Of a stretch of DNA of 64,000 bases, positions 1,262 through 55,500 are shown piece after piece. Under the pieces are notes generated by a model, which worked only from the letters and a program-made list of their open reading frames with translations, was not told where the DNA came from and made no database searches. The position numbers and the translations under genes are program-made. Source of the stretch: Bdellovibrionales bacterium RIFOXYC1_FULL_37_79. GTDB taxonomy: Bacteria; Bdellovibrionota; Bacteriovoracia; Bacteriovoracales; Bacteriovoracaceae. The number at the start of each line of letters is the position of its first letter. The first letter of the stretch is position 1. The stretch is from contig MEQB01000052.1 in NCBI GenBank assembly GCA_001770015.1, positions 1 to 64,000 of the forward strand, in the 5' to 3' direction.

Positions 1262-3211
1262 ATGAGAAAAGAAGTAATCATATTCATTATGATAATATAT
1301 CCCGCTATAGTCTTCTGTGGCGGGATTGCTTTTCCAGGAATTGATGAAATTTTCAAAAAAAATAATATTTCTGTAGAATATAATCAGGATTCATATAAAT
1401 CTTTTAAAGATTATGTTCAATTGTTGATGACAGAGTCTTCAGTGAAAAAAAAGCAATCCGCTTATAATTATGCTTTTACTTTATTGGGAGATAGTTACAA
1501 TCCTGGTTTGGAAAATGAAAATAGATACTTTAAAGCTTTACGTGTTATTTATGCAGCACTTGCTGATGGGCAATTTGAGATTAATCCTCCGAATATTGCG
1601 ATGGTTCGGCTTGAAATGGCGACGCAGCCAAAATCATTTAAGCAAATGGATGTGGATGAAATATTTAAACAGATTGGTCTCAAAAAATCTGTAGATGAAG
1701 CTAGTTTTCTTTATGATACTTCATCTGGAACTTTTGTTTCAAATAAACACGATCTACAACACCTGACACCAGAGGAAATTTCTAAATTAGATATTGATCC
1801 CGATCATGCATGGTGGAACCAAGTGGGAAAGGTAACTTCATGGAAGAATTTAGAGGATTGGGCAGAAGAGATTATTACCAAAAAAATTGAAAAGAAACTA
1901 GGTAGCAAGATTGAGCGATATCAAATTTCAAAATTTAGAAAAGTTTTATTCTTGCAAAAAATAAAATCATCTGGAACAAGTCCCAAGGCGCAGGCGAAGG
2001 ACGCTTTGGCAATTGAGTGGAAAATTAAATGGGGAAACGAAGTTCAAACAGAGCCGGTCGCCAATCGGTTATATCTTGCACTTGGCGCTAAATATGTCGA
2101 CTTGGTCTACGCAAATAAACGAGGCCAAGAAGGATTGACGCTTATTTTAGGAGACCCATCAAATGAGCAAAGATGCGATAAGGAGATTGCCTCGATATCT
2201 TTTTTGAGAAAATGTCTGATTGAGGATTCTCCTTATAGGTTCGATATATTTCCTTTTATTTTTGATCAAGGAATTATAACGGAGGACAATGTAGATCAAG
2301 TGTTGCGATATTTACCAGAAACTCCTGTTGATAAATATCAAAAAGATAAATTAATAGGCAGACAATATGTAACATTTAAAGAATCGTCGGTAAAACTTGA
2401 TGCGGATTCAATCATTAAGAAAATTGGACCTGCAACGACAAACCTTTTTGAAGCACAAAATGATAGGGCACTTAGAGGTCTTTTTCTTTATAATTTATGG
2501 ATTTCAAATACTGATGCGAAAGAAGATAATAATAAAGCAGTTTTTCTAGAAAATTTTAATTCTAAATCTCAATATTATATAGAAACTCAACACGATATGG
2601 GTGCCAGCTTTGGGCCTTTAGGATTTCCTGGTTTGATTAATGAATTAAATATAGATAAAGATTTTTTGAAGGAAAAATACTTTTTTAAAAAAATAATATT
2701 TGATACAAAATTTGGTTATTTTCCGACATCATGGAAAAATGCAAGCTATTCCGATTTTTTGTGGTTTGCTAAAAAAATAGCATCCATTCCCAGTAAGCAA
2801 ATCGAATTAATCGTAGCGTCAAGCAAATGGCCTGTTCACATTCAAAAAGTTTTTAGCTACAAAATGATAAAGAGGCAACATCGAATTGCGGAAATATTTG
2901 GAGTTACTTCGCTACTCGACTTGAAAAATGTACCGGTTCCAAACATTGAAATTGATCTATCCACTGCAGACAAAAAGATTGCAGCGGCGATGGATTTTGG
3001 TTTTCCCCCAGAAAAATTTGTAAAGATTCTCGGACAAAACAATATAGAAAAAGATATTCTTGTCCGAGATGGTTTGATTATCACTTGCGATAAATCAATA
3101 ATAAATAATTTGTTGGAAAAATTTTATTACCCGACAGGCCTTTCCAGGAGAATTAAAAGAAGTGACGATGATAAACCATTGGATCCATGTAAAATGAAGT
3201 TTCCTTGGTAG
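1262..3211 (+). CDS. secreted protein with kinase-like signature, unknown function
   Basis: 649 residues with an N-terminal signal peptide (residues 1-19). Residues about 250-285 read WKIKWGNEVQTEPVANR followed by LALGAKYVDLVY. This resembles the N-lobe of a bacterial PI3K/HipA/CotH-like kinase-fold group, with Lys254 or 256 and Glu264 as possible ion-pair residues. Residues 402-450 read RALRGLFLYNLWISNTDAK, then EDNNK, then QHDMGASFG. Asp418 and Asn423 would match the catalytic Asp/Asn, and Asp445-Met-Gly the metal-binding DFG-like motif. The fold is my inference; no residue has been tested. It is last in the three-gene secreted cluster, 8 bp after the previous stop and with no clear ribosome site, so it may be translationally coupled. 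It is the second kinase-like exported protein in this island. Confidence 0.6.
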   Translation: MRKEVIIFIMIIYPAIVFCGGIAFPGIDEIFKKNNISVEYNQDSYKSFKDYVQLLMTESSVKKKQSAYNYAFTLLGDSYNPGLENENRYFKALRVIYAALADGQFEINPPNIAMVRLEMATQPKSFKQMDVDEIFKQIGLKKSVDEASFLYDTSSGTFVSNKHDLQHLTPEEISKLDIDPDHAWWNQVGKVTSWKNLEDWAEEIITKKIEKKLGSKIERYQISKFRKVLFLQKIKSSGTSPKAQAKDALAIEWKIKWGNEVQTEPVANRLYLALGAKYVDLVYANKRGQEGLTLILGDPSNEQRCDKEIASISFLRKCLIEDSPYRFDIFPFIFDQGIITEDNVDQVLRYLPETPVDKYQKDKLIGRQYVTFKESSVKLDADSIIKKIGPATTNLFEAQNDRALRGLFLYNLWISNTDAKEDNNKAVFLENFNSKSQYYIETQHDMGASFGPLGFPGLINELNIDKDFLKEKYFFKKIIFDTKFGYFPTSWKNASYSDFLWFAKKIASIPSKQIELIVASSKWPVHIQKVFSYKMIKRQHRIAEIFGVTSLLDLKNVPVPNIEIDLSTADKKIAAAMDFGFPPEKFVKILGQNNIEKDILVRDGLIITCDKSIINNLLEKFYYPTGLSRRIKRSDDDKPLDPCKMKFPW

Positions 3212-3234
3212 AAAAAAAACTTATACAGATATAA
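3196..3234 (+). repeat. short dispersed repeat, copy 1
   Basis: The block AAGTTTCCTTGGT.GAAAAAAA, overlapping the stop codon of the upstream gene, recurs at 10633-10655. After a gap of about ten bases in one copy, an ACTTA..ACAGATAT.AT block recurs too. Base-level similarity is strong only over about 23 bases. It may be what remains of a duplicated gene end. Confidence 0.45.
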
Positions 3235-3485
3235 TCTCTTTTATCTTTTCTTGGTTCTCGAAATTTCAATTTTGGTTTTAAATTTTTAAAAATATTTAAT
3301 GGATGGTCTGTCTGATGGATTATTATTCCAATCATGATTTTTAACAACTCTTAGAATTTCCCTTATATGTTTTTTATCGTTTGTAGTCATATTATGCTCT
3401 ATTGAAGATGGAAACAAAATTCATGATTCAACATCCGCTTCATTTATACATTTTGCTTGTAAAATCTCTAACCATGTCATTCTAC

Positions 3486-3794
3486 TTAAGCCGCCCAATC
3501 AGTGATAATCTCTTTCTCTGAAAGATTCATTGCCTCAGCAATCTTATACAACGTTGTTCTCCTCGGCATTGAGGCAGCGCTGAAAAATCTACTAAGTGAA
3601 GGCTGAGGAATTCCTGTTTTTTTTGCAAGCTTTGTCACTCCACCCCACTGATCAACAACCGTTTTTAAATGAGCTTTAAATCCCATTACGTCTTTAGCAA
3701 TTAGATCTAAATCAGTATATCTAATATAGGGTTTTTTAGTTGGTTTTTTGGGTTGCTCTTCATATTCGTCAATCTCACCTTGAATTTGCGCCAC
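3486..3794 (-). pseudogene. HTH (XRE/antitoxin-like) protein, N-terminally truncated
   Basis: The reading frame encodes a C-terminal helix-turn-helix: residues about 52-95 include GVTKLAKKTGIPQPSLSRF and a RRTTLYKIAEAMNL segment, typical of XRE/HigA-type antitoxin DNA-binding domains. The listed start is a GTG at 3794 without a ribosome site. The same frame stays open back to 3929 and continues the protein sense (ADAVEIAAYYEGVYELFELW), but no ATG, GTG or TTG is found there before it runs into the end of an IS66-like fragment. I therefore read it as the 3' part of a gene cut by a rearrangement near 3900. It could still be expressed from the GTG. No toxin gene is adjacent. Confidence 0.55.
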
Positions 3795-3877
3795 AATGTC
3801 TTTTTTAAACTCAACATCATTCTCGGTGGCCCAAAGCTCAAATAATTCGTAAACCCCTTCATAATAAGCCGCAATCT

Positions 3878-4387
3878 CTACCGCATCTGCAATAAATTTA
3901 TTTGAATATATTCGGGAGGTAGTTTGCCTTCAAAAACTTTTCCTGAAAATGGTGAATAGTATTTATGGAGAAGAAATTTAGTATTATTTAGATTAAAATT
4001 AATGTCTTGGATTACAACCTCCCTGGTACCTTTATATTGTGCATCTTGGGGAAGATCTTTTTTGTCGACATTTATTTCTTCTGTCTTATGGATTTCTATT
4101 ATTTTAGTTTGCTTGTTTTTACCACGACCAGATTGCCCTCTGTCCTTTTTTTTATCCTTATTATCGATTTTGTTATCTTTATTTTTAGTAATAACAGGTT
4201 TCCCTTTTTCTCCCTTGAAACGATTGATTTCATCTTTTAGTTTTTGAATTTCTAAAGACAAGTCAGTTATTTTATTTTTTTGTTCGTCAATTTTATTAAG
4301 AAGAGTCTTAATCGCCTCACCTAATTTTTTCAACGGAAGCTTTAGAAATAATTGAATAGAAAAATTCTTAATATCGTCGAATGGCAT
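3878..4387 (-). pseudogene. IS66-family transposase (TnpC-like) N-terminal fragment
   Basis: 169 codons. The N-terminal half is a coiled coil (LLNKIDEQKNKITDLSLEIQ) followed by a Lys/Asp-rich linker. Residues about 113-158 include YKGTREVVIQDINFN, KYYSPFSGK and GKLPPEY, matching the N-terminal region of IS66-type DDE transposases. The full family protein is about 450-550 residues, and the catalytic part is missing. The frame ends shortly after PPEY at a junction where the neighbouring HTH reading frame begins, so this is a truncated remnant. No companion tnpA or tnpB genes and no convincing terminal inverted repeats are found. Confidence 0.65.
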
Positions 4388-4764
4388 TCACCAATAATTT
4401 CATAACTGAGGTAAAAGGCCTTACATTTGCAGAATATTTATAGAATTCCCCTATCTAATGAATAGATACGGGACAGGGAAATGGGGAATAATCTATTAAT
4501 GCGTTGATATTATTAAAAACTGCATTTCAGATTTTTGGGAAGTCCACCATTCCCGCAGAATGGTGGAGGTGGTGGAATTTTTCCAACGTCTTATTATCAT
4601 TAACGTTGGAGTGTTGAGTGTAGCCAAAATAGCCACGGCACTTCCAATCTTTCCTTAAACGTCAGCACTATTTTTCAGTGTAACGTAAGAGCGTATTTTT
4701 TATTAAAACTATATCATCAAATAGTCTAGAAGCTACAGGTCAAAGAATATCTAATTGAAGTTTC
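4388..4764. other. 377-bp intergenic region with two hairpins
   Basis: No gene is supported here. The stretch separates the IS66 fragment from the large protease/kinase gene, both on the - strand. It contains two perfect inverted repeats, listed separately, and an AT-rich tail. It would hold the 3' untranslated region of neither a nearby + gene nor an obvious promoter, so it may be leftover insertion-element DNA. Confidence 0.5.
4544..4610. repeat. two adjacent perfect hairpins
   Basis: Hairpin 1: CCACCATT (4544-4551), 7-base loop, AATGGTGG (4559-4566). Hairpin 2: TCCAACGT (4582-4589), 13-base spacer, ACGTTGGA (4603-4610). Neither is followed by a T-run on either strand, so they are poor terminators. 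They may be element ends or a structured transcript. Confidence 0.6.
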
Positions 4765-7700
4765 CTATTGCAACATTTTCATTAAGCAATCCCTCAGGAT
4801 TGGTATATTAAGAGTAATATGTTTTTCCAGAAATGCGGTTGCTTGCTTTGATAATATATTTTTAAATTGATTTTCAGTTACATATCCATTTCTCGAAAGA
4901 GTAAGTAATCCCTTTAATCCGAACAAATATGGTTTTTTTAGAAATCCACCTTCTTCTGATAATAGATTTAATACTTTAATTATTTTCTCGCTGGATTTCT
5001 TTTCACCAGCAACTGCAATCGTTAATTTATCTATTAATGACTGATTTATATCTATTTTTTTATCTGCCATTTTATTATAATGTTTTAGGACTTCCTCAAT
5101 ATTTCCATCTTTTAAATGTCTTAGGAACTGCACAAATATAAATCGCTCATCAGCAAGTTTAAATATATTATTGGGGGCAAACTTTTGAGACTGACCAAAA
5201 TCTATTGGATAAATTGTTTTAGTTTTGGGATTAACAAGAAAGTTTCCGCTGTGGCGATCTGGATCAAAATGGCCATATTCAAACATTGATCTCAAAGATG
5301 ATTCGACAATATGAGGACCTATTTCTTCTTGAATTGCCCGATCAAGCTTTCTAAAAGTGATCCCTTCTCCTTTTTCCATGAATAAAATATTTTCGTGTAC
5401 CCCAAGTTTGTCATCAGAAGATGGAACGTGAAACTTCCAATCATTCATTGTTTTTTCCATTTTTGTATTTATTTTTTCATAAACTTCGGCGCTTGTTTTT
5501 AACTTCTTTTTTTCTAATTTAAAATCAATTTCTTCGTTCAAAAGGTTCTTCATATGAAAAATATAATTTTCAACTAAGTTTTTAGAAAATTTGACATCAC
5601 TTTTTTCTAGTTGTTTTAAATAGTTTTCGGCCCTCGTAATATGATATTTAATTTGATTAACAGCATTAGGGTTTTTAAAAGCTGCCACTCTTTCAGTACC
5701 ATCAACCATTTCCAATAATACAACCGTTTTAATACTAGCACTACCAAGCACTGATTTTACTCCTTTAATTTGAGCGCGAATCTTTTGAGGAAGATTATTA
5801 TCCATTTCTTTTAAAATATCATATTTGCTCATCGCCTTAGTTGAATCTTTATATTCATCTAGTTGTGAATTAATTTCTTTGTTGAAAAAATCAAAATCAG
5901 GCGCTGTTTGTGCAGCTTTTGGTCCAATTACTTTAAACGCATCAAATATTTTTAAAAACCCTTTCTCTTGTTCATCACTAGGTAGTGATAATAGATACGA
6001 AATAGTTGTTGATTTTTCATCAAGAGGAGGAGTATTCAAGTATGCCGTCAGCATCTTGGTATAGTTGTCATTAAGTTTTAAATGATCACTTACAACAAAC
6101 TTGAAGTATTCAGGATCGTCTAGGAGAGGTGGTTTAGTATTAAATATAAAATTATTCAAGAGTGTTTTTTCATTAGTATCAAGTTCTTTAATAAAATTTT
6201 CAAGATATTCTTTAATGAAATTTTTAGTTTCTTCTTGAGATAATCCCTTAGTGCCATTTTCAAATATAAATTTAAAAGTTGTATTATAATCGTCCACAGC
6301 AAGATTAAGTAATGAATCGGGGAATTCCATATGCTCGCTACGTAAAATATATTCAATTAACGTTTTTCTTTGTTCTAGGTTTAAATTGCTTAAGTAATTA
6401 CTTATTCCAGATAATCTTCTTACAGGTAACTCAGATATATTGATTGTACTGGTTGTTTTTAGTTTTTCAACCTGAGCAAGTTGTTGCAAATCATCAATCT
6501 TATTATCCCACACCCACTTTTCAATTAATTCATCTCGCTTAGTAGAACTACTGATATGAAGTCGTCTCAGTGTATCTTCAAGACCTTCGATTTCCGTTTT
6601 AGGAGAATACTTGTCTTTTACAGGCACACGGTCGAAGTCAATAATGTGTTTAGAGCTTTCAAACTTAACCGTGAAATCTTCACTTAATTTAACATTTTTA
6701 AATTCATCATCCTTACGTAAATGTCCAGGGGCACCCATTTCTATAGAATAATCCATTAATCTTATCTTTTCATGCCACTGCCTATTAAGTTCGTTGAATA
6801 GTTCAATTTTCAATCCTTCATTTTCGACTTTTTCTTTGTTTAAAAGTTTTATTACTAGGTGATTTAAACTGGCATTTATATCAGTAGTCCTTTTCAACCT
6901 AGGTAAAATCACTCTTTTTATAAACTCATCAGTATCTGTGTTTGTACCTGTACCTATAGCATTAAGGAACATTTCAACTTTTTTAAAATCAGGTATATCC
7001 ATCTCATCAATTGTAGAAATAAATTTTCGTAAAATTTTATTATTCCGTACCACAGAACTTAAGGGATTAGCATCAGAATGGCTCATTATGTAATTTAGGA
7101 TATTAGACTTCTCTGTTAGAGATAATGAAGAATTCAATAATTTATCAATGTGATTATGAATAAAACTAACATAGACATCATCTCCTGCAAGTTTTGCAGA
7201 ATCCAAAAGATATTCTAAAATTTTAAAATCTTTGAAGACATTATCTTTTTTCAAATATTCAATATTTTTTAAAATAATATTAAAGTTTGATCGTCGCATT
7301 TCGTTAGTACCTAGATCGCCTAATCTTTCAAACGGAGTTGCTTGTGCTGCCCCTCTATTAATATGATTAATATCTTCAAAAAAATTATCTCTATGGCGAT
7401 ATTCGTGAATACCCATCATCCCATACTTGTTAGGTAATGATTTGTAGCGATTCCCTTTAGGATTTCTTTTTAATGGTCTTTTACCAAATGTGCTCGGTTT
7501 ATCGAGTTTATCTTCTGCTAAAAATGTATTATCTAAAATTAACTTTGATTTTGCTCTTTTTGATAAGTCGGACTGATCTATCGATTCGTAAAAAATATCT
7601 ACTGAGTACGCTGGAGGGTACTTGGTAGAACCATATAATTCCGTCATCGCTTCGGCCCAAATTTTATCAACTTCTATTTTTTGTCCATTTTTTAAAGCAT

Positions 7701-9723
7701 TATTAATACGATTTTTAATATTCGCCTTGAGATGCTTTCTATAAAGATTTGGTTGATGTACATACAAAAGCCTTCTAGCTAAATAATACTCCTTACTTTC
7801 CTTTGGAAATTTCTTAATTGCTTCATTAAATATATCTTCATCAATCCAATCAAGCTTTGATGGAGCAAAGCGACCGTCGTTTGGGTAAGTACTGCTTAAT
7901 TCATAGTCTTTAAATTTATTATTTTTTAAGAAAAATTCTATGAATGCTTCTTCACTGTCATTTATCGTTGAATTTCTTATTAACTCGTCAAAATCGCCAG
8001 ACTTTATAAACTTTAAAACATCTTTTTTAAGGTCTGCCTTACTACCACCAACCTTAGAAGAAATTTTATCCCAGTCATATGTAGCTTCTCTGGCATTAAA
8101 TAAATCCGAAATAGCAAATTCACCTTTATTCTCCCATAAGTTTTTAAGATATTTCTCCTCCAATCTTTTCCAAGCTGGTAAATTTGAGTCTTTTAGTTTA
8201 CTCCAAGCATAAGAATCACTTGTGATTGGTGTTGAATTCCAATCTCTAAAAGGAGATCCTAAAATATTTAAGCAGTTTTTGAAATCACAGTTCTCTTCTA
8301 TTCCTTTAATATATTGCTCCACTAATATATTAAAAAGATTATCAGGAGCTGGCTTTTTATACTCTGATCCACTCAGATATTTAAATATCTCAAAATGATT
8401 TAATTTTCGTTTATCAGCATGACTTAAAATCATATCATTTACTTCATCTAATAGAAGTTTATGTGTCTCAATAAAATCCTTTTCAGTTAGAAAAAGTCTT
8501 GAATACGTTAAATCATGAACAGTATCCACCTGTTTTCCATCAATGTAGCCATCCGTTAACTTTTTAAATATTGCAAATCGATCTACTTCTTTTAATCTTT
8601 TTTGAAATATTTCTTTGACTCTCAATCGATAATCACTACTTTGAAAAAGCGGTATCTTATTTGATTTTTTCAAAATATTATCATCCAAGTTAATTGGACT
8701 GCTTTTTTTAAAGTTTGATATAGGTATAACGATTTTTTCCAAGAAATCATCGATGAGTTCTTTGCTTACAGACTCATCCTTAAGAAGTGTAAACGTCTTA
8801 TCAAGTTCAATCATTAGTTGAGTTTTATAATCGTATATAGCATCGTATTTAACCATTTCCTCTAATATTTTATTTACCTTGTTCATTTGTTTAGTAATTG
8901 AATGCTGACTCAAACCCTTTACAAAAGTACTTTTTAATTGCTTAACCTCTGTTTCTAAGTCAGGCGTTATATATTTTCTTAGTAAATCATCGCCATTATC
9001 TCCCTGTTCCATTCTGCTTGATAGCATTTCAGCTTGATCAAGGGTTTCTCTTAGATTAATTTCTGGATGACTATGAATTAGATACTTTGCTGATTCTTCG
9101 AGTACATCTTTTCTTGTTTTATCAGTTTGCCCTTCAATTATATTTAATTGTTTAATAGCACTGTAAACTGTATCTTGCGGATACCCAGCGTTAAATGCAA
9201 TTTTACTACCTCTTTGATCTGTGAAAAGTTCAATGGTTTGTGGAGATGCTTTTTTGGGATCTAGTGACATACCATCAACACCCATATGATCATAAGAGTG
9301 AGCAATTTCGTGGGCAAGCACTCCTGTAATTTTTTTTAATCCATTTAAAATATCGATATTCCCATCTTTATCTGTCATAAGAAATTCAATAGCACCTTGA
9401 GAAATTTGAATATGATAAGGAGTATAAAGATCTTGTGAGCGTCTTATGTTTATAAAATATTTATCACTAGAATCCATTATATGTAGATAGTATTCGGGGG
9501 AACTTACACCAGTACCAGCATCTTTACTCATCTTTGTCGATGTTTTCACCAAGTTCTCGAAAATGTTATTTATTGCTGCTTGAAGTGCTGGATATTTACT
9601 TTTTGAAAGCACACTTTCTTCTGGAGGTTTTAACCAATCAAAGTAGGAACTCTCGGCCCAAGGATGGCACGAAAAAATCGCACAAAGTAAATATATTATA
9701 AGTAGAAAAGACCTAACACTCAT
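4765..9723 (-). CDS. exported metallopeptidase-like / ABC1-kinase-like fusion protein
   Basis: 1652 residues with an N-terminal signal sequence (hydrophobic residues 5-19, likely cleavage after PWA at 23). Residues 138-142 are HEIAH, and ELFTDQRG at 165-172 supplies the third zinc ligand expected in M48-like gluzincins. Residues about 200-1250 are mostly helical and unrecognised. The C-terminal part matches the ABC1/UbiB (ADCK) atypical kinase pattern: an LGSAS loop, then VAAFK for the ATP-site lysine, NEEIDFKLE, FMEKGEG, and DRHSGN with the catalytic Asp near residue 1489, then PIDFG. The classical KxGQ motif of UbiB is not seen. ABC1 proteins normally act on the cytosolic face, so a signal peptide is odd. 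Its substrate and site of action are unknown. The nearest known genes are remnants, so it stands alone. Confidence 0.72.
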   Translation of the reverse strand: MSVRSFLLIIYLLCAIFSCHPWAESSYFDWLKPPEESVLSKSKYPALQAAINNIFENLVKTSTKMSKDAGTGVSSPEYYLHIMDSSDKYFINIRRSQDLYTPYHIQISQGAIEFLMTDKDGNIDILNGLKKITGVLAHEIAHSYDHMGVDGMSLDPKKASPQTIELFTDQRGSKIAFNAGYPQDTVYSAIKQLNIIEGQTDKTRKDVLEESAKYLIHSHPEINLRETLDQAEMLSSRMEQGDNGDDLLRKYITPDLETEVKQLKSTFVKGLSQHSITKQMNKVNKILEEMVKYDAIYDYKTQLMIELDKTFTLLKDESVSKELIDDFLEKIVIPISNFKKSSPINLDDNILKKSNKIPLFQSSDYRLRVKEIFQKRLKEVDRFAIFKKLTDGYIDGKQVDTVHDLTYSRLFLTEKDFIETHKLLLDEVNDMILSHADKRKLNHFEIFKYLSGSEYKKPAPDNLFNILVEQYIKGIEENCDFKNCLNILGSPFRDWNSTPITSDSYAWSKLKDSNLPAWKRLEEKYLKNLWENKGEFAISDLFNAREATYDWDKISSKVGGSKADLKKDVLKFIKSGDFDELIRNSTINDSEEAFIEFFLKNNKFKDYELSSTYPNDGRFAPSKLDWIDEDIFNEAIKKFPKESKEYYLARRLLYVHQPNLYRKHLKANIKNRINNALKNGQKIEVDKIWAEAMTELYGSTKYPPAYSVDIFYESIDQSDLSKRAKSKLILDNTFLAEDKLDKPSTFGKRPLKRNPKGNRYKSLPNKYGMMGIHEYRHRDNFFEDINHINRGAAQATPFERLGDLGTNEMRRSNFNIILKNIEYLKKDNVFKDFKILEYLLDSAKLAGDDVYVSFIHNHIDKLLNSSLSLTEKSNILNYIMSHSDANPLSSVVRNNKILRKFISTIDEMDIPDFKKVEMFLNAIGTGTNTDTDEFIKRVILPRLKRTTDINASLNHLVIKLLNKEKVENEGLKIELFNELNRQWHEKIRLMDYSIEMGAPGHLRKDDEFKNVKLSEDFTVKFESSKHIIDFDRVPVKDKYSPKTEIEGLEDTLRRLHISSSTKRDELIEKWVWDNKIDDLQQLAQVEKLKTTSTINISELPVRRLSGISNYLSNLNLEQRKTLIEYILRSEHMEFPDSLLNLAVDDYNTTFKFIFENGTKGLSQEETKNFIKEYLENFIKELDTNEKTLLNNFIFNTKPPLLDDPEYFKFVVSDHLKLNDNYTKMLTAYLNTPPLDEKSTTISYLLSLPSDEQEKGFLKIFDAFKVIGPKAAQTAPDFDFFNKEINSQLDEYKDSTKAMSKYDILKEMDNNLPQKIRAQIKGVKSVLGSASIKTVVLLEMVDGTERVAAFKNPNAVNQIKYHITRAENYLKQLEKSDVKFSKNLVENYIFHMKNLLNEEIDFKLEKKKLKTSAEVYEKINTKMEKTMNDWKFHVPSSDDKLGVHENILFMEKGEGITFRKLDRAIQEEIGPHIVESSLRSMFEYGHFDPDRHSGNFLVNPKTKTIYPIDFGQSQKFAPNNIFKLADERFIFVQFLRHLKDGNIEEVLKHYNKMADKKIDINQSLIDKLTIAVAGEKKSSEKIIKVLNLLSEEGGFLKKPYLFGLKGLLTLSRNGYVTENQFKNILSKQATAFLEKHITLNIPILRDCLMKMLQ

Positions 9724-9905
9724 GGTGTCTTATCGGTAGAAATATGTGGAATTATTCAGATCGCATTGGATAAATTACGAAGAGGCAAAAAGTACCTTAA
9801 TTCACAAAAATAAAGGAAAGTTTCCTCGTACCGTTTTGACAATAAAAAGCCACACCTGTCGGCAAACAAGTTGCTGATCACTAAATGTTTTTTTCTTTAG
9901 CCGGT

Positions 9906-10184
9906 TCAACATATCATAATTTCATGATAAATACGTGTATAGAGAGAAATTATAAATTCCAAAACTTGTTCTTCAATCGTTCTTTCTGTCTCTGAACTAT
10001 AACCATCACCAAGTGAAACTCCTAAATTATCTGGTTCCTTACACATGATAATCCCGCCAGGTTTTAAAATTCTCTTCATCTCTTGTAGAGCCTTCTCGGG
10101 TTTTTTCAAATGCATCAGCAACGTCTGACACATGGCCATGTCTACTGATTCATCGGGCAGAGGAATTTCATTACCAACTAGCAA
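9906..10184 (-). pseudogene. SAM-dependent methyltransferase fragment
   Basis: 92 codons resembling the centre of a class I (type 11) methyltransferase: LPDESVDMAMCQTLLMHL and a KALQEMKRILKPGGIIMCKE segment match motifs II-III (post-motif Asp and the LKPGG turn). The GxGxG SAM-binding motif that should lie upstream is absent, and the frame opens at a TTG four codons after an in-frame stop. The C-terminus is also cut short. It is most likely a decayed gene remnant within the accessory region. Confidence 0.65.
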
Positions 10185-10631
10185 GTAGCTTAGTTAATTG
10201 TTAATCGGAGTTTAGAATTATTTAATTAAGTAGTCTAGTGGTTGCTTCAGAAAAATATTTTAATCTAACCTGACATTGATGGTTGCGTAAGGAAATTCTA
10301 CTTGTAACAAATGCTAAATAACTAAAATCATATTAAGTGGTACAAGTAACTAGTACCAACAGATAAGAAGCTTATCGGACAAAAAATTCTTTTAACTTGT
10401 CTAATTTAGATGCTTCTCTACATATTCAGCAAAAATTTACCCAAGTTTATAAATTTTTTAAATTTTTCCAGAAAAACACCTTGAAAATGCACACTGAAGG
10501 AATAGAACCACCCTCCCGCCGTCCTGGCGGGATCATGAAATTGACTCAAAACCTCTCTCTATATTGAAGATTGATCCTGAAATTAATCGTAACTATTTTT
10601 ATAAGGCGATAAAAATATCGCTTAGGTTTAA

Positions 10632-10678
10632 TAAAGTTTCCTTGGTGGAAAAAAACAAATAAAAGACTTAACAGATAT
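10632..10678 (+). repeat. short dispersed repeat, copy 2
   Basis: Repeats the AAGTTTCCTTGGT.GAAAAAAA block found at the stop codon of the 649-residue protein gene (3197-3217), followed after an insertion by a similar ACAGATAT block. No reading frame continues here. Confidence 0.45.
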
Positions 10679-11021
10679 TATAGTTGCTTGTTTATGGTAA
10701 AAATTATTGAAGAGGCTGAAGTCTTACACAAAAAGCCCGATTAATGCTATGAGAAAATACGGATCGTAAAAAATAGAACGAGTACCAACTCGTGGACGAC
10801 AAGCCACAGCGCCAACGAAACAACGGATTTTGATCGTATCATGAAAATTGTAATGTGTTCTCCAGTGTCGAAGGCCAGACTGAAAGCGAAGCTTTCGGAC
10901 CGAAAGGTCTATCATGAAGGCTGTGAAAGATAGGAATTGGAGCCTGTTACTATAGTAATTCACACGAAACTTGATAAGTCCTCAAGCTGAAGAATTTGTA
11001 AGCTGACAAGAGGCAAAAAAA

Positions 11022-11069
11022 GTGGGATTACGTTTTTTTATTGAAGAGAAAACTAAAATTACAACCAAG
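11022..11069 (+). repeat. 48-bp direct repeat, right copy
   Basis: Matches 40-87 at 46 of 48 positions in the same orientation. It lies about 50 bases before the operator of the thioredoxin/RND operon, exactly where the gene content changes from orphan secreted proteins and gene fragments to ordinary conserved genes. Confidence 0.85.
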
Positions 11070-11117
11070 TAAATTCCATTGATTATTATTTAAACCCTAT
11101 TCTGAAAAAAAACACTT

Positions 11118-11145
11118 GAACATATTATAATTTTGTAATATGTTC
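11118..11145 (+). promoter_or_regulatory. palindromic operator and -10 box, probable ArsR-family site
   Basis: GAACATATTA (11118-11127), 8-base spacer, TAATATGTTC (11136-11145): a perfect 10-8-10 inverted repeat about 50 bases before the thioredoxin ATG. A TATAAT hexamer (11126-11131) lies inside it, so a bound repressor would block the promoter. AT-rich palindromes of this kind are typical ArsR/SmtB-family operators, and the operon's second gene encodes such a regulator, so autoregulation is likely. Binding is inferred. Confidence 0.65.
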
Positions 11146-11195
11146 CCCCTCTCTTTCACTTACTAGCATATAAAACGATTAACCAAGGAGTTTTT

Positions 11196-11570
11196 ATGTT
11201 ATTTACCCATGAAATTGGAAGTGAAAATTACGATCAAACCTTAAAAGACCACAATATTGTCATCCTGGATTTCTGGGCACCCTGGTGCGGGCCTTGCCGA
11301 GCATTTGGCCCCATTTTTGAGAAAGTTGCCAGCAGACATACTGATGTGTTTTTTGGCAAGGTCAACACCGAAAACGAACAACTTTTATCCAGTATTTTAA
11401 ACATAAGATCCATCCCGACCATCATGATTTTTCGCGACAATATCCCGGTTTTTTCTCAAGCTGGCATGCTGCCGGAAGCAGGGCTAGAGGATCTGATCCA
11501 AAAAATTAAAAATCTTGATATGGAAGAAATAAAAACGAAATTATCCTCCAAACCCTCCATGACAGTTTAA
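11196..11570 (+). CDS. thioredoxin
   Basis: 124 residues, a single thioredoxin domain with the active site WCGPC (Cys31, Cys34), the cis-proline segment RSIPTIMIF and the usual length plus a C-terminal tail of about 18 residues. No signal peptide, so it is cytosolic. It reduces disulfides or persulfides using electrons from a thioredoxin reductase encoded elsewhere. AAGGAG stands 7 bases before the ATG. It is the first gene of an operon with an ArsR-type repressor, a TolC-like channel and an RND pump, placed directly behind the palindromic operator. That setting suggests an inducible role in thiol, persulfide or metal stress rather than housekeeping. Whether it is the main thioredoxin of the cell cannot be judged here. 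Confidence 0.9.
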   Translation: MLFTHEIGSENYDQTLKDHNIVILDFWAPWCGPCRAFGPIFEKVASRHTDVFFGKVNTENEQLLSSILNIRSIPTIMIFRDNIPVFSQAGMLPEAGLEDLIQKIKNLDMEEIKTKLSSKPSMTV

Positions 11571-11584
11571 TAACTTGGGTTTAT

Positions 11585-11890
11585 ATGAAAAAATGTTTTG
11601 AAAAAATTGATCAAAATTGTCTTATGGCAACAAAAATTTTTAAAACGCTATCACATCCTTTGCGTCTGAAAATTCTTTGCCATCTTTTTAATGAGGCTAG
11701 CACGGTTAGTGCGCTAGAAGAACTCTGCCACGGCTCACAATCCCTGGTTTCCCAGTGTCTAAAACGACTTGAACTGGAGGGACATGTTGAATCATCCAGG
11801 GATGGAAAAAACGTGTACTATAGGATAAAGGATATGAGAATCATTGAACTGTTTAAAAATTTTGAAAAAGTTTTTTGTAATAGGAATTAA
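11585..11890 (+). CDS. ArsR-family repressor, BigR/SqrR-like
   Basis: 101 residues, one winged-helix domain. TLSHPLRLKILCHL begins the domain and SQSLVSQCLKRLELEGHV is the recognition helix region, followed by the wing RDGKNVYYRI. The SQSxVSQ helix together with Cys32 and a cysteine four residues from the end (Cys98) is the pattern of the sulfide/persulfide sensors BigR and SqrR, in which the two cysteines form a tetrasulfide bridge. Four more cysteines (4, 12, 48, 58) are present, so a metal sensor is not excluded. It starts 14 bases after the thioredoxin stop and probably represses the whole operon through the palindrome at 11118-11145. Confidence 0.82.
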   Translation: MKKCFEKIDQNCLMATKIFKTLSHPLRLKILCHLFNEASTVSALEELCHGSQSLVSQCLKRLELEGHVESSRDGKNVYYRIKDMRIIELFKNFEKVFCNRN

Positions 11891-11908
11891 GGATAAATTG
11901 GAGTCTTT

Positions 11909-13186
11909 ATGAAAATAATAATTATGTTGGTGTTTTTATCTGCATCCCTGGCGTATGCCCAGAAATTTACTTTAAGTGAATTAATCACTCAAAGTGAAAC
12001 TCATTCTCCCCTCTTGGATCCCAATAAGGCCAAAATCGATTATGCCGACCAGGCCAATGCCCTGGCAACCTCTTATTATTTTCCGGTCTTTAATTTTACC
12101 CAGCGTTATACGGAATCCAACAATCCGGTTCAGGCCTTTGGTATGAAACTCATGCGAGAAGATTTCACCATGCAGGATTTTGCCCTCGACAAACTCAATA
12201 ATCCCGACAAGACCAAGGCTCACCAAAGCTCGTTTACCCTGTACGTTCCGCTGGATGTTTTTGGCAACATCCGTACCCAAAAAAAGATTATCAATCATCA
12301 AAAAGAATCAGTTCTTTTTGAAGGTCAATGGATAAAAAAGGAAATCAAAAAGAATTTAACCGCACTTTACCATGCTTATTTTTCGCTGGATGATCTGCAA
12401 AAATTCTTTATATCCGAGAATGATTTTCTCCAAAAGATTGTAAGAACCTATGATTCCAAGAGCAAAGAAAATAAAAACCGTTATCTTTCCTATAACCAGG
12501 CCAGAATCCTGATTGATTCATTACAAGAAGGGATTGAAACCCTAACCAATGAAAAAACCAAACTCCTAAAGGAAATTTCCTATATTTCCGGTATCGAGCA
12601 GCTTGAACTGGAACGACAAAGCATCCAAAATGTGGATATCCCCAACCTTTCATCCAGGCCGCTTGCACGTTATGATTTAAAATCCATGCATAAATATGTT
12701 GAGGCGCTGGAAGCAGAAATTTCCAAGGAAAAAATGGCCTATTTCCCTGAACTCTCCGCTTTTGGTCAATATAATTTAACCCGAGAGAATTTTTCTGATA
12801 CTGCCGGAAAAGATACCACGATCGGGGCCCAGCTATCATGGACCTTTGGTTTATCCACGGTTAAAAATGTCTCCCTCAGCAGGGCCAAAAGTTTGCAGGC
12901 CCGCTATGAATATAAAAACAAGGAACGACGGGCAGAAACCGAAATTGATTTACAGGCCAAAGAGCTCGATAAAATGCATAAAAAATTAAGACATTTGGAA
13001 AATCGTCATAAGATATTTTCTGAAAACAAGAATATTTTAAATTTTCAATATCAAAGAGGCTCGGTAGAACTTTACAATCTGCTGGATAACTTCACTTACT
13101 ACATTCAAAATTATTCAGACCTTATGAAACTTGGTGCCGAGTATCAGGCACAACTGGCCACATATGTTCAAAATTTTCAGGAATAA
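11909..13186 (+). CDS. TolC-family outer-membrane efflux protein
   Basis: 425 residues with a signal peptide ending near residue 17 (SLAYA before QKFT). Two repeats of long amphipathic helices (residues about 130-225 and 330-425) separated by short beta segments give the TolC/OEP architecture; ALEAEISKEKMAYFPELSAFGQYNL is characteristic of the family (here in shortened form AEISKEKMAYFPELSAFG). The channel would form a trimer through the outer membrane and periplasm. TTGGAG precedes the ATG. It lies 18 bases after the repressor gene and 14 bases before the RND pump gene, so the pair clearly belongs together. The gene for a membrane-fusion adaptor that normally links channel and pump is not between them. 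Confidence 0.88.
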   Translation: MKIIIMLVFLSASLAYAQKFTLSELITQSETHSPLLDPNKAKIDYADQANALATSYYFPVFNFTQRYTESNNPVQAFGMKLMREDFTMQDFALDKLNNPDKTKAHQSSFTLYVPLDVFGNIRTQKKIINHQKESVLFEGQWIKKEIKKNLTALYHAYFSLDDLQKFFISENDFLQKIVRTYDSKSKENKNRYLSYNQARILIDSLQEGIETLTNEKTKLLKEISYISGIEQLELERQSIQNVDIPNLSSRPLARYDLKSMHKYVEALEAEISKEKMAYFPELSAFGQYNLTRENFSDTAGKDTTIGAQLSWTFGLSTVKNVSLSRAKSLQARYEYKNKERRAETEIDLQAKELDKMHKKLRHLENRHKIFSENKNILNFQYQRGSVELYNLLDNFTYYIQNYSDLMKLGAEYQAQLATYVQNFQE

Positions 13187-13200
13187 TCAGGAGTCAATAG

Positions 13201-16200
13201 ATGAAAAATAAATTAGGTTTCGCCGGAAAGATTGCAAGTAAATTTTTAAATTCCAAACTAACTTTGCTTTTTGTACTGTTCTCTTTGACCTTGGGAGTTT
13301 TCTCCATCATTATGACGGCCAAAGAAGAAGAGCCGCAGATCAAAGTTCCCATGATTGATGTCATGATCCCGGTGCCAGGCTATTCCCCACAAGAAATTGA
13401 AAAACGAGTCAGCAATATTGTTGAGCGTGAAATGAGCGCCTTGACCCAGGTGAAACATGTTTACTCAACCTCCATGGAGAATTTTGCCATGGTTACCGTG
13501 CGATTTGAAGTGGGAGAGGATTTAGAAACCAGTTTAATAAAAGTGCATGATAAAATGATGCAACTTAAAGCTAAGCTTCCCAGCGAAATGATGTCTCCTA
13601 CGGTTAAATCGTTCACCATCGATGACGTCCCCTTTTATTCACTCACTTTCTTTTCCAAAAATTTAAATTCATCCGAAATTCGTTATCAAGTTTATCCGAT
13701 TGTGCAAAAGCTGCAAGAAATTGATGGCATCGCTGATCTAGGTTATATCGGAGGAGAAAGAAAAGTCGTCAGAATCATACCCGACCTCATCAAGCTGCAA
13801 ACCTACGGCGTCACCCTGTTAGAAATGAAAGATGCGGTTGAAAAATCCAGTTCGGAATTTACCGTGGCGGTTTTGCGGGAACGCACCCCCGAACCATTAC
13901 TAGCAGTGGGTTCATTTATTAAAAATATAGATGATATTAACAATATTCCCATCGGAAGACGTTTTGGCAAAACCCTGAAACTCTCGGATATGGCTTCTGT
14001 TATATACGATTTTGATAATGTAAAATCCAAAGTTTTACACGGGAAAGAATTCTTGTCGGCCATAACTGTCACCTTTACCAAAAAGAAGGGCACCAACGCC
14101 ACCAACTTGGCCATCAATATAAAAAATCAACTGGATGATCTTTGGAAAGAAAGTAATTTAGGTGAAAATATCGCTTATGAAGTCACCAGAGACTACGGAC
14201 AGACGGCCAAAGAAAAATCCGATGAATTATTGGAGCATTTAATCCTGGCCACGATCTCGGTTATGATTTTAATTGCCCTAACCATGGGAATCAGAGTTTC
14301 GCTGGTAGTTGGCATTGCCGTACCGGTTACGCTTGCCATGACCCTGCTGATCTACTATCTCATGGGATACACCTTAAATCGGGTTACCCTGTTTGCCCTG
14401 ATCTTTTCCATTGGTATCCTAGTGGATGATGCCATAGTCGTAGTTGAAAATATTTATCGTCATCTGGCAATGGGTAAAAATACCAATCGTGATGACCTCA
14501 TAAACGAGGCGACAGATGAGGTGGGCAATCCCACCATCCTGGCAACCCTGACGGTTATTGTCGCCATCATGCCCATGGCCTTTGTCGGAGGATTGATGGG
14601 GCCATATATGCGTCCCATCCCGATTGGGGCCTCCATGGCCATGATCTTCTCCTTGTTTATTGCCTTTATGATCACCCCTTGGGCATCCAAGCGTATTATC
14701 GGAACTAAAGTCACGGCCCATGAAGAAAAGCACGACGGTTTTTTGGCCAGATATTTCAAAGTCATGATGACCTGGATCGTGGCCAGGCCTAAAAACTCAA
14801 TTATAGTGGGTATCAGTGTTTTTATCCTGCTGCTGGGCTCGGTCTCGCTAATCCTTACCAAACAAGTAAAAGTCAAAATGTTACCCTTTGATAATAAATC
14901 CGAATTTCAAGTTTTAATTGATATGCCCCCTGGCGCCACTCTCCTGGAAACTGAAAATCTGGCCAAAAATATAAGCACCAGGCTTTATAGCTATAAGGAA
15001 GTTCAAAATATTCAAGCTTATGTGGGAACTGCGGCCCCTTTTAATTTCAGCGGAATGGTCAAACATAGCTTTCTGCGCGCCTCCTCCTACCGGGCCGATC
15101 TGCAAGTCAACCTCTTACCTAAACATGATAGGGACATGCAAAGTCATCCACTGGTCACGAAAATGAGACAGGAAATTTTAAAAGAATTTGCATCCAACGA
15201 CATGCTTAAAATTAAATTTCTAGAAATTCCCCCAGGTCCTCCTGTGCTCTCCACGCTCCTTGGTGAAATCTATCATCCCAACGATCAAATCGCCAAAGAT
15301 GCCACTTTAAAACTTGCCTCCATTTATAAATCAACCGACGGTGTAGTCGAAACTGACACAACTTATGAAATTCCTCAGGAAAAACTTTTCTTTAACTTTG
15401 AAAGAGAACAAGGCATGATTCATGGGGTTCCTCAAAAATATGCCACAGCGACCATCCTCATGGCGCTGGGGGATTTAAATCTTTTTCCTTTGCATATTGA
15501 TAATGAAGAAGAAAGTATTTTTATGCGACTGACTCTTTTGGATTCCATCAAACAATCCAACGATCAATTACTATCCCTGTTAGTCCCTTCCATGGAAGGG
15601 GACAAAATCCCTCTCCAAAAAGTATTAAAAGTGGAAAAGAAATTTACCGCAAATCCCATTTACCACAAGGATTTAAAAAAGGTTTCTTATGTCATGGCCG
15701 AAGTGGCAGGCAGTGAAGAAAGCCCATTTTACGCTATTTCAAATATGAGCGATAAACTAAACGATTATGAAGTCACTTATACCCAGGTGCCAAACGTCCA
15801 TGCCAAGCCTATTTTAAAGTGGGATGGTGAGATGGATATTACGATTGAAGTATTTAGGGATATGGGAATCGCTTTTTTCATAGCCGTCGTTTTCATTTTA
15901 TTAATTGTCATTGGCTGGTACAACTCTTTCATCCTGCCCCTCATTATCATTGTACCAATCCCTCTGACTTTGATTGGTATCATTCCTGGACATCTCTTGG
16001 CGGGCGCTTTTTTTACCGCCACCTCCATGATTGGATTTATTGCCGGAGCCGGTATTACAGTTCGAAACTCCATTATCCTGGTTGATTTTATTGAAATGAA
16101 AAGAGCCGAAGGATTAAGTGCCAAAGATGCCATTATTGAATCAACCATTGTGCGATTTCGTCCTATCCTCTTAACCGCATTGGCCGTACTAGTTGCCGGA

Positions 16201-16338
16201 GGCGTAATCCTCTTTGATCCGATTTTCCAAGGTCTTGCCATCAGTTTAATGGCCGGTTCAATTATTTCGGCACTGCTTTCCATCCCCCTGATACCCGTTT
16301 TATATTACTGGTTAAGGAAAGATATGGAGGTCAATTGA
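13201..16338 (+). CDS. RND efflux pump permease
   Basis: 1045 residues, full length for the RND (AcrB/MexB/CzcA) superfamily. One TM segment near the N-terminus (residues 17-37), a large periplasmic loop, six TM segments around 340-560 and a second half of the same design with TM segments from about 880. Residues 405-417 (GILVDDAIVVVEN) are the TM4 motif with the proton-relay pair Asp409/Asp410. The pump would export a toxic compound by proton antiport. CAGGAG precedes the ATG. It is the last gene of the thioredoxin/repressor/TolC operon. Heavy-metal (HME) and hydrophobe (HAE) types differ by a charged residue in TM4; the DD pair here fits the HAE side. The substrate is unknown, and a sulfur compound is suggested only by the neighbours. 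Confidence 0.9.
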   Translation: MKNKLGFAGKIASKFLNSKLTLLFVLFSLTLGVFSIIMTAKEEEPQIKVPMIDVMIPVPGYSPQEIEKRVSNIVEREMSALTQVKHVYSTSMENFAMVTVRFEVGEDLETSLIKVHDKMMQLKAKLPSEMMSPTVKSFTIDDVPFYSLTFFSKNLNSSEIRYQVYPIVQKLQEIDGIADLGYIGGERKVVRIIPDLIKLQTYGVTLLEMKDAVEKSSSEFTVAVLRERTPEPLLAVGSFIKNIDDINNIPIGRRFGKTLKLSDMASVIYDFDNVKSKVLHGKEFLSAITVTFTKKKGTNATNLAINIKNQLDDLWKESNLGENIAYEVTRDYGQTAKEKSDELLEHLILATISVMILIALTMGIRVSLVVGIAVPVTLAMTLLIYYLMGYTLNRVTLFALIFSIGILVDDAIVVVENIYRHLAMGKNTNRDDLINEATDEVGNPTILATLTVIVAIMPMAFVGGLMGPYMRPIPIGASMAMIFSLFIAFMITPWASKRIIGTKVTAHEEKHDGFLARYFKVMMTWIVARPKNSIIVGISVFILLLGSVSLILTKQVKVKMLPFDNKSEFQVLIDMPPGATLLETENLAKNISTRLYSYKEVQNIQAYVGTAAPFNFSGMVKHSFLRASSYRADLQVNLLPKHDRDMQSHPLVTKMRQEILKEFASNDMLKIKFLEIPPGPPVLSTLLGEIYHPNDQIAKDATLKLASIYKSTDGVVETDTTYEIPQEKLFFNFEREQGMIHGVPQKYATATILMALGDLNLFPLHIDNEEESIFMRLTLLDSIKQSNDQLLSLLVPSMEGDKIPLQKVLKVEKKFTANPIYHKDLKKVSYVMAEVAGSEESPFYAISNMSDKLNDYEVTYTQVPNVHAKPILKWDGEMDITIEVFRDMGIAFFIAVVFILLIVIGWYNSFILPLIIIVPIPLTLIGIIPGHLLAGAFFTATSMIGFIAGAGITVRNSIILVDFIEMKRAEGLSAKDAIIESTIVRFRPILLTALAVLVAGGVILFDPIFQGLAISLMAGSIISALLSIPLIPVLYYWLRKDMEVN

Positions 16339-52439: not shown

Positions 52440-52500
52440 TTAAGGAGGACGCCTTAACTTGCCGATGAGAAAAAAGAGAAGGAGAAGAGGATTTGCCTAA
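52440..52500 (+). promoter_or_regulatory. leader with Shine-Dalgarno hairpin and a mini-ORF
   Basis: TTAAGG (52440-52445) and CCTTAA (52452-52457) form a 6-bp hairpin that includes the strong site AAGGAGG. Ten bases later a TTG opens a 13-codon frame (also readable from ATG 52465) encoding MRKKRRRRGFA. Its stop TAA (52498-52500) overlaps the TTG start of the big lipoprotein gene at 52493. This allows translational coupling. The purine run AGAAGGAGAAGAGGA inside it may simply be the main ribosome site. Confidence 0.4.
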
Positions 52501-55500
52501 AAATAATTGTTTGCTCAACATAACCAGGTATCTAGTGTGCGTATTGATGGCAACTCAATTGGCCAGTTGTATTAGCAGCGGTGGACCTAATAAAAAAAGC
52601 AAAACCACCACCAATTCCACTAAACCTAATTCGCCGGTTTTTGAAAGCACCGACTATGTCCGCTTTGTCTATCACGACACCAACTACAATGCAGTTCTAC
52701 CGATCAGCGTCTCCATGATTGATACTATCTATCTCCAAGGAAAGAGCGTCCATAATTTCATCGACAATGGTAACGCCTCCACCGTCTTATGCCTGGTTAC
52801 TCACTACGAAACGACCATGGTTAGCAATAAAATTTTAATAAGTGCACTCCGTCCGGCCAATTTTTTAAATCAAAATTCCAATACCCGGGAAAATTACTTC
52901 TTCTTTTCACCTTCGGATACGACCGCCAACCAGTACTTTTGCAAAAAAACAGGTTTAATCAATGCCATGAATATCAAATATCCAGGTCACAATATCGCTT
53001 ACTCACCTAGCGAAATGCAGATGATCTCCACCACCTCCATCACTTCCAATTATTTTGCCATCCATGCAGAAGGTGGATCAATCATTACGCAAATGGAAGT
53101 GAATCATCTTTCTTTAAAAATCAATGCCGGTCCTGACCCCACCGATCAAAATACCTTTAGCTGTGTCACCACCACTGAATGTAAAAATAAAGGGTACGAC
53201 TGCTGTTCAATGAACCAATGTATCAAAGACAACACACTCAAGGACGGCGTCAATACCAGCAGCAACGAATATATCCAGGCCATTTTGGATATTCAACAAA
53301 ATCAGGCCACCTTCAAGGACTATCCCAATTTCTTCCATGTCTGTGGCAACGAAGTAGAGGCCACACCTACGCCGACTCCTACTGTAAATCCTGAAGAAGA
53401 AAACACCCTCTGGCTGCAAAAATTAAAACATTTATACGAATGCACCACCCCCCTAGAAGGTGAAATGTCGATTTGTACGGTCACGCACCCCAATGCCCAA
53501 ACCGGCGTCTTCTATTCCACCACTAATGATGATCGGAATTTTAGAACCACCTTACCGGCTGACTCCTTAATGCCCACTCACAGTGTGGTGGAAATTATCT
53601 ACGCTGGCACCACCCTTTTTACGAAAGGGGAAATCTATAATCCCACCAACGGCAAATATACCATAGGCCAGGGCAACGACACCCTCATTGATCCGGTGGT
53701 GGTTTCCCTTACCAATGTGCAACCAGGAAGCAATCCGCCTGATTTGGATTTATTACTAAGATATAAGGTCGACGGTAGCTGCGAACAAATCAATTCCATG
53801 ATTTCCAAATGTAAAAAATATTATATTCAAGGCCAAAACTCCAATCCCACCAGAGTCGATGACCATCCCACCGGCACAGATCTTTTTTACCTTCCCAGTT
53901 ACGCAGATATCTCCAAGTCCGTCGTGGTGGAAGTGGATGGTATTACCAAAATTAGAAATATTCACTGGCAATTAATCAATAGTTCTCCCGCACACATTCA
54001 ATTTATAGGAACCGGGCAACAGGTTTTTGACACTCAATCAGTCATTATCACCTATTATGTAAGTAATTCCACCCTTTCCAATGTTTTACAAGCAAAGCAA
54101 ACCGCCTTGGAAGAAATTGATAAAATGTGTAATTGCGGAGGTAAAAACAACTGTTCACTGACTCCGGTCATCACTACCAATCTCGGTGTCGAAAGTATTT
54201 CAAACTATAAATGCGTTTATCCGGAAAACAACAGTCTGCCGGTACCTTTACAACAGATAGTCTATCTCAATCCTAAAACGGTTCCGGTGCGCTTATTTGA
54301 CAAGCAGGGGGTTTCCAAAAAAGAGGCCACCTACGAAGTTTCCCAAGAAGGATCTCTGTTTAAATATTATAAGGATAATTTATTAAAACCCAATAATCTT
54401 TTTGATGTTAGTGGTAATTACAAGGATGACATCTACATTGGCTTTAATGAAATATATGGAAGTCTGAGTTATCTCACCGACAGTGCCAAACCTGCCCTGG
54501 AAATCCGGGTGGTAAAGAATAAAACCTACGATATTTTTGTAGATGCAGGAGTGTTCTCATCTTGTTATTTTTGCGGAAGCGATTATTATTCCAATCTGGC
54601 CAAGCTCTTTCCGTCCAACTTCAGCACCTGGGGAGGGGGTTATACGCCCGATCCATCCCAGACCAGTCGAATCAAAACCAACGTACATAGGGCCGACGAT
54701 TCTCATTTCGGCAGGAGCTGTTATGTGCCCGCCACCATGATACCGTGGTCACATCGGGCAAGCAGCGATCGTCAAGAGCAGCGCCAAAGACGCCTGGCCA
54801 CCCAGCATTTTTTATTCGCCAACGGTTATAATCGAGACTGGTATGGGTTTGACTATGGCTCGGTCATTGGATCTTTTGATGGTGTCAAATGGTTTGCCAT
54901 TGGCAATGAAAGAAGAATCAGGGCCGAGGGCAATAAATTATTTCTAGCAGTCAATGCTTACTTTGGTGATCTGACCTTAGCTAACCAGGTGCCTTTCCAA
55001 GTCACCGTCCAAGACTCTATCACCACCATCAACACAGGTGAACTCATTTCTTCTGACTTTGAAAATGCCGGCGCTGAATGCCAAAAATATCATGTATGTA
55101 ACACAGATAAAGATTGCGTAACCCAACTGGGATGGAACTACGCTTGTGAAACCATCTCGGGCATTTCCACCAGTTGGCCAATTTTTGATGAAAATGCCTT
55201 GGAGCTTCCTGACCAATCACAAACCATCATGCTCACCCAAATCATTAAAAATCTCACTGGTGGCAGTAAAAGGTGCGTTTACCGGGGAAGAGGTGCTCCC
55301 TGTCACACCAATTATCACAGCATCTTTAACTCATCGACCGGAGGAACTGTTTCTTACGATGGCACCAAGACGATTGGACTGCATAGCTGCGTTCCCAATA
55401 GTTATTGTCAAAATTTTAGAAATACCGTGGAAGAAGAAAAATTCAATAACAAAATTGCCCGTTTTGGCAAAACGGTAAAAAATGTCAATAACGATACCAC

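Follow-up and report, generated by a model that had tools for sequence, protein, structure and literature searches.

The window, a stretch of 64,000 nucleotides from Bdellovibrionales bacterium RIFOXYC1_FULL_37_79 that forms part of a 4.36-Mb genome in 74 contigs, carries at 4765-9723 on the reverse strand one uninterrupted ORF of 1652 codons with an ATG start (the features of its product described below all lie on this strand). The encoded 1652-aa protein begins with a signal peptide, after which come an M48-like N-terminal part, a long helical stretch and, at the C-terminus, an ABC1/UbiB domain; its delineation rests on the ORF, a match to Pfam PF03109 and a family of constant architecture. 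An initial annotation had read this gene as an exported fusion of an HExxH peptidase-like domain and an ABC1 kinase domain, and all the motifs it listed were found in the protein: HEIAH (residues 138-142), ELFTDQRG (165-172), LGSAS (1326-1330), VAAFK (1346-1350), DRHSGN (1489-1494) and IDFG (1507-1510). As detailed below, the reading of an exported protein in which an M48-type HExxH domain is joined with one of ABC1/UbiB type is supported by the signal segment and by both domain identities, whereas the notion of the ABC1 part as an ordinary active kinase is unlikely to hold.

Elsewhere in the window, a short ORF upstream of the fusion gene (9906-10184, reverse strand) matches a SAM methyltransferase domain over its second half only and is possibly a gene remnant. 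Genes resembling those for thioredoxin, ArsR, TolC and RND efflux appear to form an operon (11196-16338, forward strand; names assigned by eye). A further large gene (52493-57469, forward strand) has a 1658-aa product that starts like a lipoprotein (LASCISSGG), matches no Pfam family and is unrelated to the fusion protein by BLAST.

By hydrophobicity, residues 1-23 (9655..9723) appear to form a signal peptide, with R4 in the n-region, a hydrophobic core and a likely cut after PWA, and they are the only hydrophobic segment of the protein. Nearly all relatives whose N-terminus is complete had a similar N-terminal segment, usually as their only one; in many members it closes with an AxA-like signal-peptidase site (judged by eye), and none of the family members showed a membrane segment at the C-terminus. 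Because positive charge precedes the hydrophobic segment, the body of the protein should lie outside, and these sequence features suggest that it is probably periplasmic or secreted. The lone segment could conceivably stay uncleaved as an anchor, or act as a lipoprotein signal, a reading allowed by the Cys that follows IFS at position 19 of the window protein, leaving the body in the periplasm or, less likely, in the cytoplasm as in UbiB. We consider this improbable, given that the AxA ends resemble signal peptidase I sites and that the M48 relative BepA is periplasmic (PMC8423444, PMC7950410).

The M48-like metallopeptidase domain occupies about residues 45-230 (9034..9591). When a profile of 11 N-termini from the family was compared with the PDB, it matched the Geobacter M48 peptidase 3c37 (5.8e-18) and BepA (2.9e-8), with the region of E165 aligned to 3c37. 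At ~20% identity among these N-termini, the sole fully invariant columns were H138, E139 and H142 of the HEIAH zinc motif (9298..9312), E165 and D169 (9217..9231), and H219 and R225 of the active-site plug HP-x(4)-R (residues 219-225; 9049..9069); the rows had been picked partly for HExxH, while the Glu, Asp, His and Arg played no part in the choice. BepA binds its zinc through the histidines of HExxH together with a Glu and the plug His of HP-x(4)-R (PMC7950410), and by analogy with BepA E201, E165 is the predicted third zinc ligand. The M48 pattern published in the same study, HExxH-x(30,140)-HP-x(4)-R, was found at residue 138 of the window protein and matched by chance in 5 of 20,000 shuffles of its sequence; combined with the Glu/Asp ligand motif, it matched in 0 of 20,000.

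The initial annotation had expected both an M48 and an ABC1 profile to match. PF03109 does match the window protein, but Pfam M48 (PF01435) gave it no reportable score, although it exceeded its cut-off in six sampled relatives (L031, L028, L033, L067, L073 and L076; best 1.4e-15, in L076). An AlphaFold2 model of residues 24-860 had low confidence overall, its mean pLDDT being 48.7, and reached about 70-80 in the peptidase core. Its best VIA-align neighbour was 3c37 (Z 7.8, rmsd 4.7, 138 residues aligned), followed by the zinc-peptidase ZMP1 (Z 7.5), Z values that are weak alone and agree with the sequence evidence; Foldseek with the same low-confidence model returned no significant match. In this low-confidence model the HExxH motif appears to sit on the active-site helix of an M48-like fold, which tends to speak against the earlier concern that it might be buried in a helix with no peptidase fold. 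Taken together, the sequence comparisons confirm the N-terminus as an M48 peptidase-like domain. Across the family, 19 of 26 N-termini, drawn from genomes in 10 bacterial families, keep HExxH, and it is missing in the other 7, including both copies of genome G021. Predicted peptidase activity is therefore not universal, although the site usually appears intact.

Residues 231-1254 (5962..9033) are predicted to be all-helical, with an alpha-solenoid-like arrangement at low confidence, and belong to no Pfam family, in line with the roughly 1000 helical residues of no known family described initially. Helical repeats matched the modelled middle no more than moderately, and these matches may be due to chance.

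The UbiB/COQ8-type ABC1 domain, with its KxGQ region, covers residues 1255-1640 (4804..5961). PF03109 matched residues 1292-1525 with an E-value of 2.4e-15 (56.8 bits vs a cut-off of 22.9), and a sequence profile of the domain matched COQ8A, COQ8B and Rv3197, down to 1.8e-15. An AlphaFold2 model of residues 850-1652, built from a seven-row alignment, had a mean pLDDT of 74 (mostly 80-95 over the last 350 residues) and superposed on human COQ8A with a Z of 27.8 and an rmsd of 3.7 over 354 residues, in agreement with Foldseek (5.6e-12). Since the structural match spans COQ8A 258-644, it takes in the KxGQ region that is special to UbiB proteins. The motif itself reads KAAQ in the window protein (residues 1269-1272; 5908..5919), keeping K and Q with G replaced by A, and KFGQ or KAGQ in several relatives. 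Alignment to UbiB and COQ8A placed GSAS (residues 1327-1330; 5734..5745) at the likely equivalent of the Ala-rich loop, which is GSAS or GSGS in the family where UbiB has AAAS. Further along lie the catalytic/metal loop DRHSGN (residues 1489-1494; 5242..5259), with D1489 and N1494, and DFGQ (residues 1508-1511; 5191..5202), with D1508. The window protein did not reach the cut-off of TIGR01982, the UbiB equivalog model for ubiquinone biosynthesis (48.8 bits vs 487.55), and the source genome encodes a separate, ordinary UbiB on contig C21. By homology, then, the C-terminal domain is a member of the UbiB family and not a UbiB equivalog.

The fold was expected to superpose on ADCK3 with the kinase Lys, Asp and DFG in place; the ABC1 fold, Asp and DFG were indeed recovered, but the Lys is absent. 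The VAAFK string that had been taken for the lysine motif is present, yet its Lys is off position: in an ungapped alignment to ordinary UbiB and COQ8A, Lys1350 faces a Gln and Ala1348 (5680..5682) stands at the position of the invariant beta-3 (VAIK) lysine, K358 in COQ8A. The domain is therefore homologous to UbiB/ABC1 proteins without being a catalytically standard member. This loss extends beyond the window, as the beta-3 lysine was found in 6 of 28 family members vs 12 of 12 ordinary UbiB proteins, the remaining members having Arg (6) or another residue (16; Leu, Met, Tyr, Ala, Ser, Thr, Gln or Asn). The same 28 members kept the catalytic-loop Asp1489 and Asn1494 in 27 cases each and the DFG Asp1508 in all. 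In a tree of the family, the beta-3 lysine is absent from the window's clade (13 members), mostly replaced by Arg in a second clade (7 members) and mostly kept in a third (6 members), and L031, near the base, keeps it too, a pattern that makes at least two losses likely.

As read from these alignments, the UbiB/COQ8-type domain of the window's clade is a kinase-like module that lacks the beta-3 lysine. With Ala1348 here and the lysine lost in most of the family, the domain probably does not work as an ordinary active kinase, and phosphotransfer by the window protein itself is unlikely; the six members that keep the lysine may be active kinases. UbiB-family proteins are known as cytosolic, matrix or plastid proteins that require ATP, and the doubt voiced initially about ATP outside the cytoplasm fits the repeated loss of the lysine. 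Losing the lysine while keeping Asp, Asn and Asp is what would be expected of a nucleotide enzyme moved to where ATP is absent and reused there, although it is not proof of such a move.

We surveyed the family by searching 369 genomes from the phylum Bdellovibrionota with a profile and by inspecting loci. The fusion architecture occurs in at least 24 genomes from at least 10 families (among the matches listed, those labelled f1, f3, f6, f8, f11, f12, f19, f20, f23 and f26). Members are mostly 1500-1800 aa long, many close to 1650, and at least four genomes have two copies each. The distribution across the phylum is patchy, and none of the 24 carriers listed belongs to the large genus labelled g71, which is probably Bdellovibrio. 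Bdellovibrionota include predators, and the source bacterium is a relative of the predator Bdellovibrio. In the tree, a 100/99 branch separates the family from the ordinary UbiB proteins of the phylum, which are about 570 aa long and whose ABC1 domain is likely of common origin with that of the fusion family. Distances between N-domains and between C-domains were correlated (Mantel r 0.75; as high in 0 of 5000 permutations), so both ends have probably moved together since an old fusion. A contig scan with the A2 profile, whose pattern suits the window's clade only, found seven loci, all in Bdellovibrionota (Bdellovibrionales)/Oligoflexia/Bacteriovoracia assemblies. A single-protein contig scan for spread beyond the phylum found nothing, viral contigs held no relatives of the fusion protein, and plasmids held only an ordinary ABC1 protein.

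Two loci with further copies deserve description. A second family copy in the source genome (L009, on contig C15 of G000; 1601-6241, reverse strand) is 22% identical to the window protein and looks to be decaying, since HExxH is missing, DPA stands in place of DFG and the protein ends ~100 residues short beside a transposase-like gene; 118-1494 on the forward strand of L009 was noted together with this truncated copy. At L033, two divergent members of one genome lie head to head, ~100 bases apart (4025-9223, reverse strand, and 9324-14027, forward strand), and both keep HExxH and have Arg at the kinase lysine position.

The flanks of the compared family loci showed no conserved neighbours, and no partner is indicated by them. 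A link to the prkA-yeaH-spoVR stress cluster was considered and rejected, as the cluster adjoins a family gene at two loci only (the C15 paralog and one in G354) and SpoVR lies elsewhere in the others. The cluster itself (names partly assigned by eye) was seen at L009 8107-11999 and L065 5760-10547, in two genomes of different families. Separately, SpoVR-like segments were found within longer frames of 1079-1208 aa (G240:C22, G293:C62 and G021:C16), unlike the ordinary SpoVR architecture.

Among known proteins, the closest parallel to the N-terminal half is offered by M48 peptidases of the BepA/3c37 type (PF01435), which have in common with the window protein HExxH, the downstream Glu and Asp and the HP-x(4)-R plug, as well as a predicted alpha/beta core, export and a helical domain after the peptidase; 3c37 is ~20% identical to the window protein's N-terminus. 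BepA, which is exported, combines an M48 peptidase with a helical solenoid and acts on outer-membrane proteins (PMC7950410, PMC8423444). It carries a TPR domain but lacks a kinase domain, whereas the window protein has ~1000 helical residues and a UbiB-like domain. With UbiB, COQ8A (ADCK3) and Rv3197 the C-terminal domain has in common a COQ8A-like fold that includes the KxGQ region, a likely equivalent of the Ala-rich loop, ExD, DxHxGN and DFG; unlike them, the window's family is exported, fused to a peptidase, without C-terminal membrane helices and mostly without the beta-3 lysine. COQ8A needs a divalent cation to bind nucleotide, and phospholipids, quinone intermediates and 2-propylphenol raise its ATPase activity (PMC7263595, PMC7877690). 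The initial statement that no described family joins ABC1 to a zinc-peptidase agrees with our searches: none of the curated family models that we compared, Pfam and equivalog models among them, describes such a join, defence-system models did not match the window protein, and a literature search, with most subscription journals outside it, found nothing on exported ABC1 kinases or M48-ABC1 joins. As far as we checked, the component folds are known, and the combination, the export and the loss of lysine with retention of Asp and Asn are new.

The losses at both ends raise the question of whether the protein is a pseudo-enzyme scaffold, structural or binding in role, in which both active sites are relics. 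HExxH is lost in 7 of 26 members and the lysine in 22 of 28, as this would predict. Relics, however, are not expected to retain catalytic residues selectively, and the 11 divergent N-termini have no invariant columns other than the peptidase residues, while Asp, Asn and Asp persist at the kinase site; we therefore hold this explanation to be unlikely. Also unlikely is that both domains are active where ATP is present, for example after delivery into a prey cell, cutting targets there and phosphorylating them or extracting lipid from them, since even though the near-invariant Asp, Asn and DFG, the six lysine-keeping members, the predators in the phylum and the patchy spread, multiple copies and very fast divergence (as in an arms-race protein) would suit it, the window protein has Ala in place of the lysine, which most members have lost, g71 is absent from the listed carriers, and neither a delivery signal nor a conserved secretion neighbour was seen at the compared loci.

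We thus favor, with a probability of roughly 0.6, an exported, probably periplasmic or secreted M48 zinc-metallopeptidase that carries a ~1000-residue helical scaffold and a C-terminal UbiB/COQ8-type (pseudo)kinase serving in binding or regulation, as suggested by sequence, models and analogy. Both domain identities, the N-terminal signal segment, the conservation of the peptidase site, the loss of the kinase lysine and the co-inheritance of the ends were computed; activity, location after export, ligand and substrate, and the step from fold to function throughout, we infer. According to this proposal, the signal peptide would carry the protein out of the cytoplasm, where the scaffold and the UbiB-like domain would hold or sense a partner, be it a protein, a lipid or a quinone-like ligand, with a divalent metal or nucleotide perhaps bound at the conserved Asp, Asn and Asp. 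By binding its ligand or partner, the UbiB-type module would control or aim the peptidase, and the M48 site would then cut a substrate, similarly to BepA, in which a TPR solenoid hands outer-membrane proteins to the peptidase. More tentatively, and at somewhat less than even odds, the family may represent an extracytoplasmic branch of UbiB that acts, without the lysine, as a metal- or ligand-dependent regulator of the attached M48 domain, its targets in Bdellovibrionota possibly being quinones or other isoprenoid lipids, or prey molecules.

If this is true, an exported, peptidase-joined branch of UbiB would show the fold reused where ATP is scarce. It would also provide a natural experiment on which kinase residues serve a use other than phosphotransfer, with the Asp, the Asn and the DFG Asp staying and the lysine going. 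The family adds a large, unnamed group of exported proteins to a phylum known for predation.
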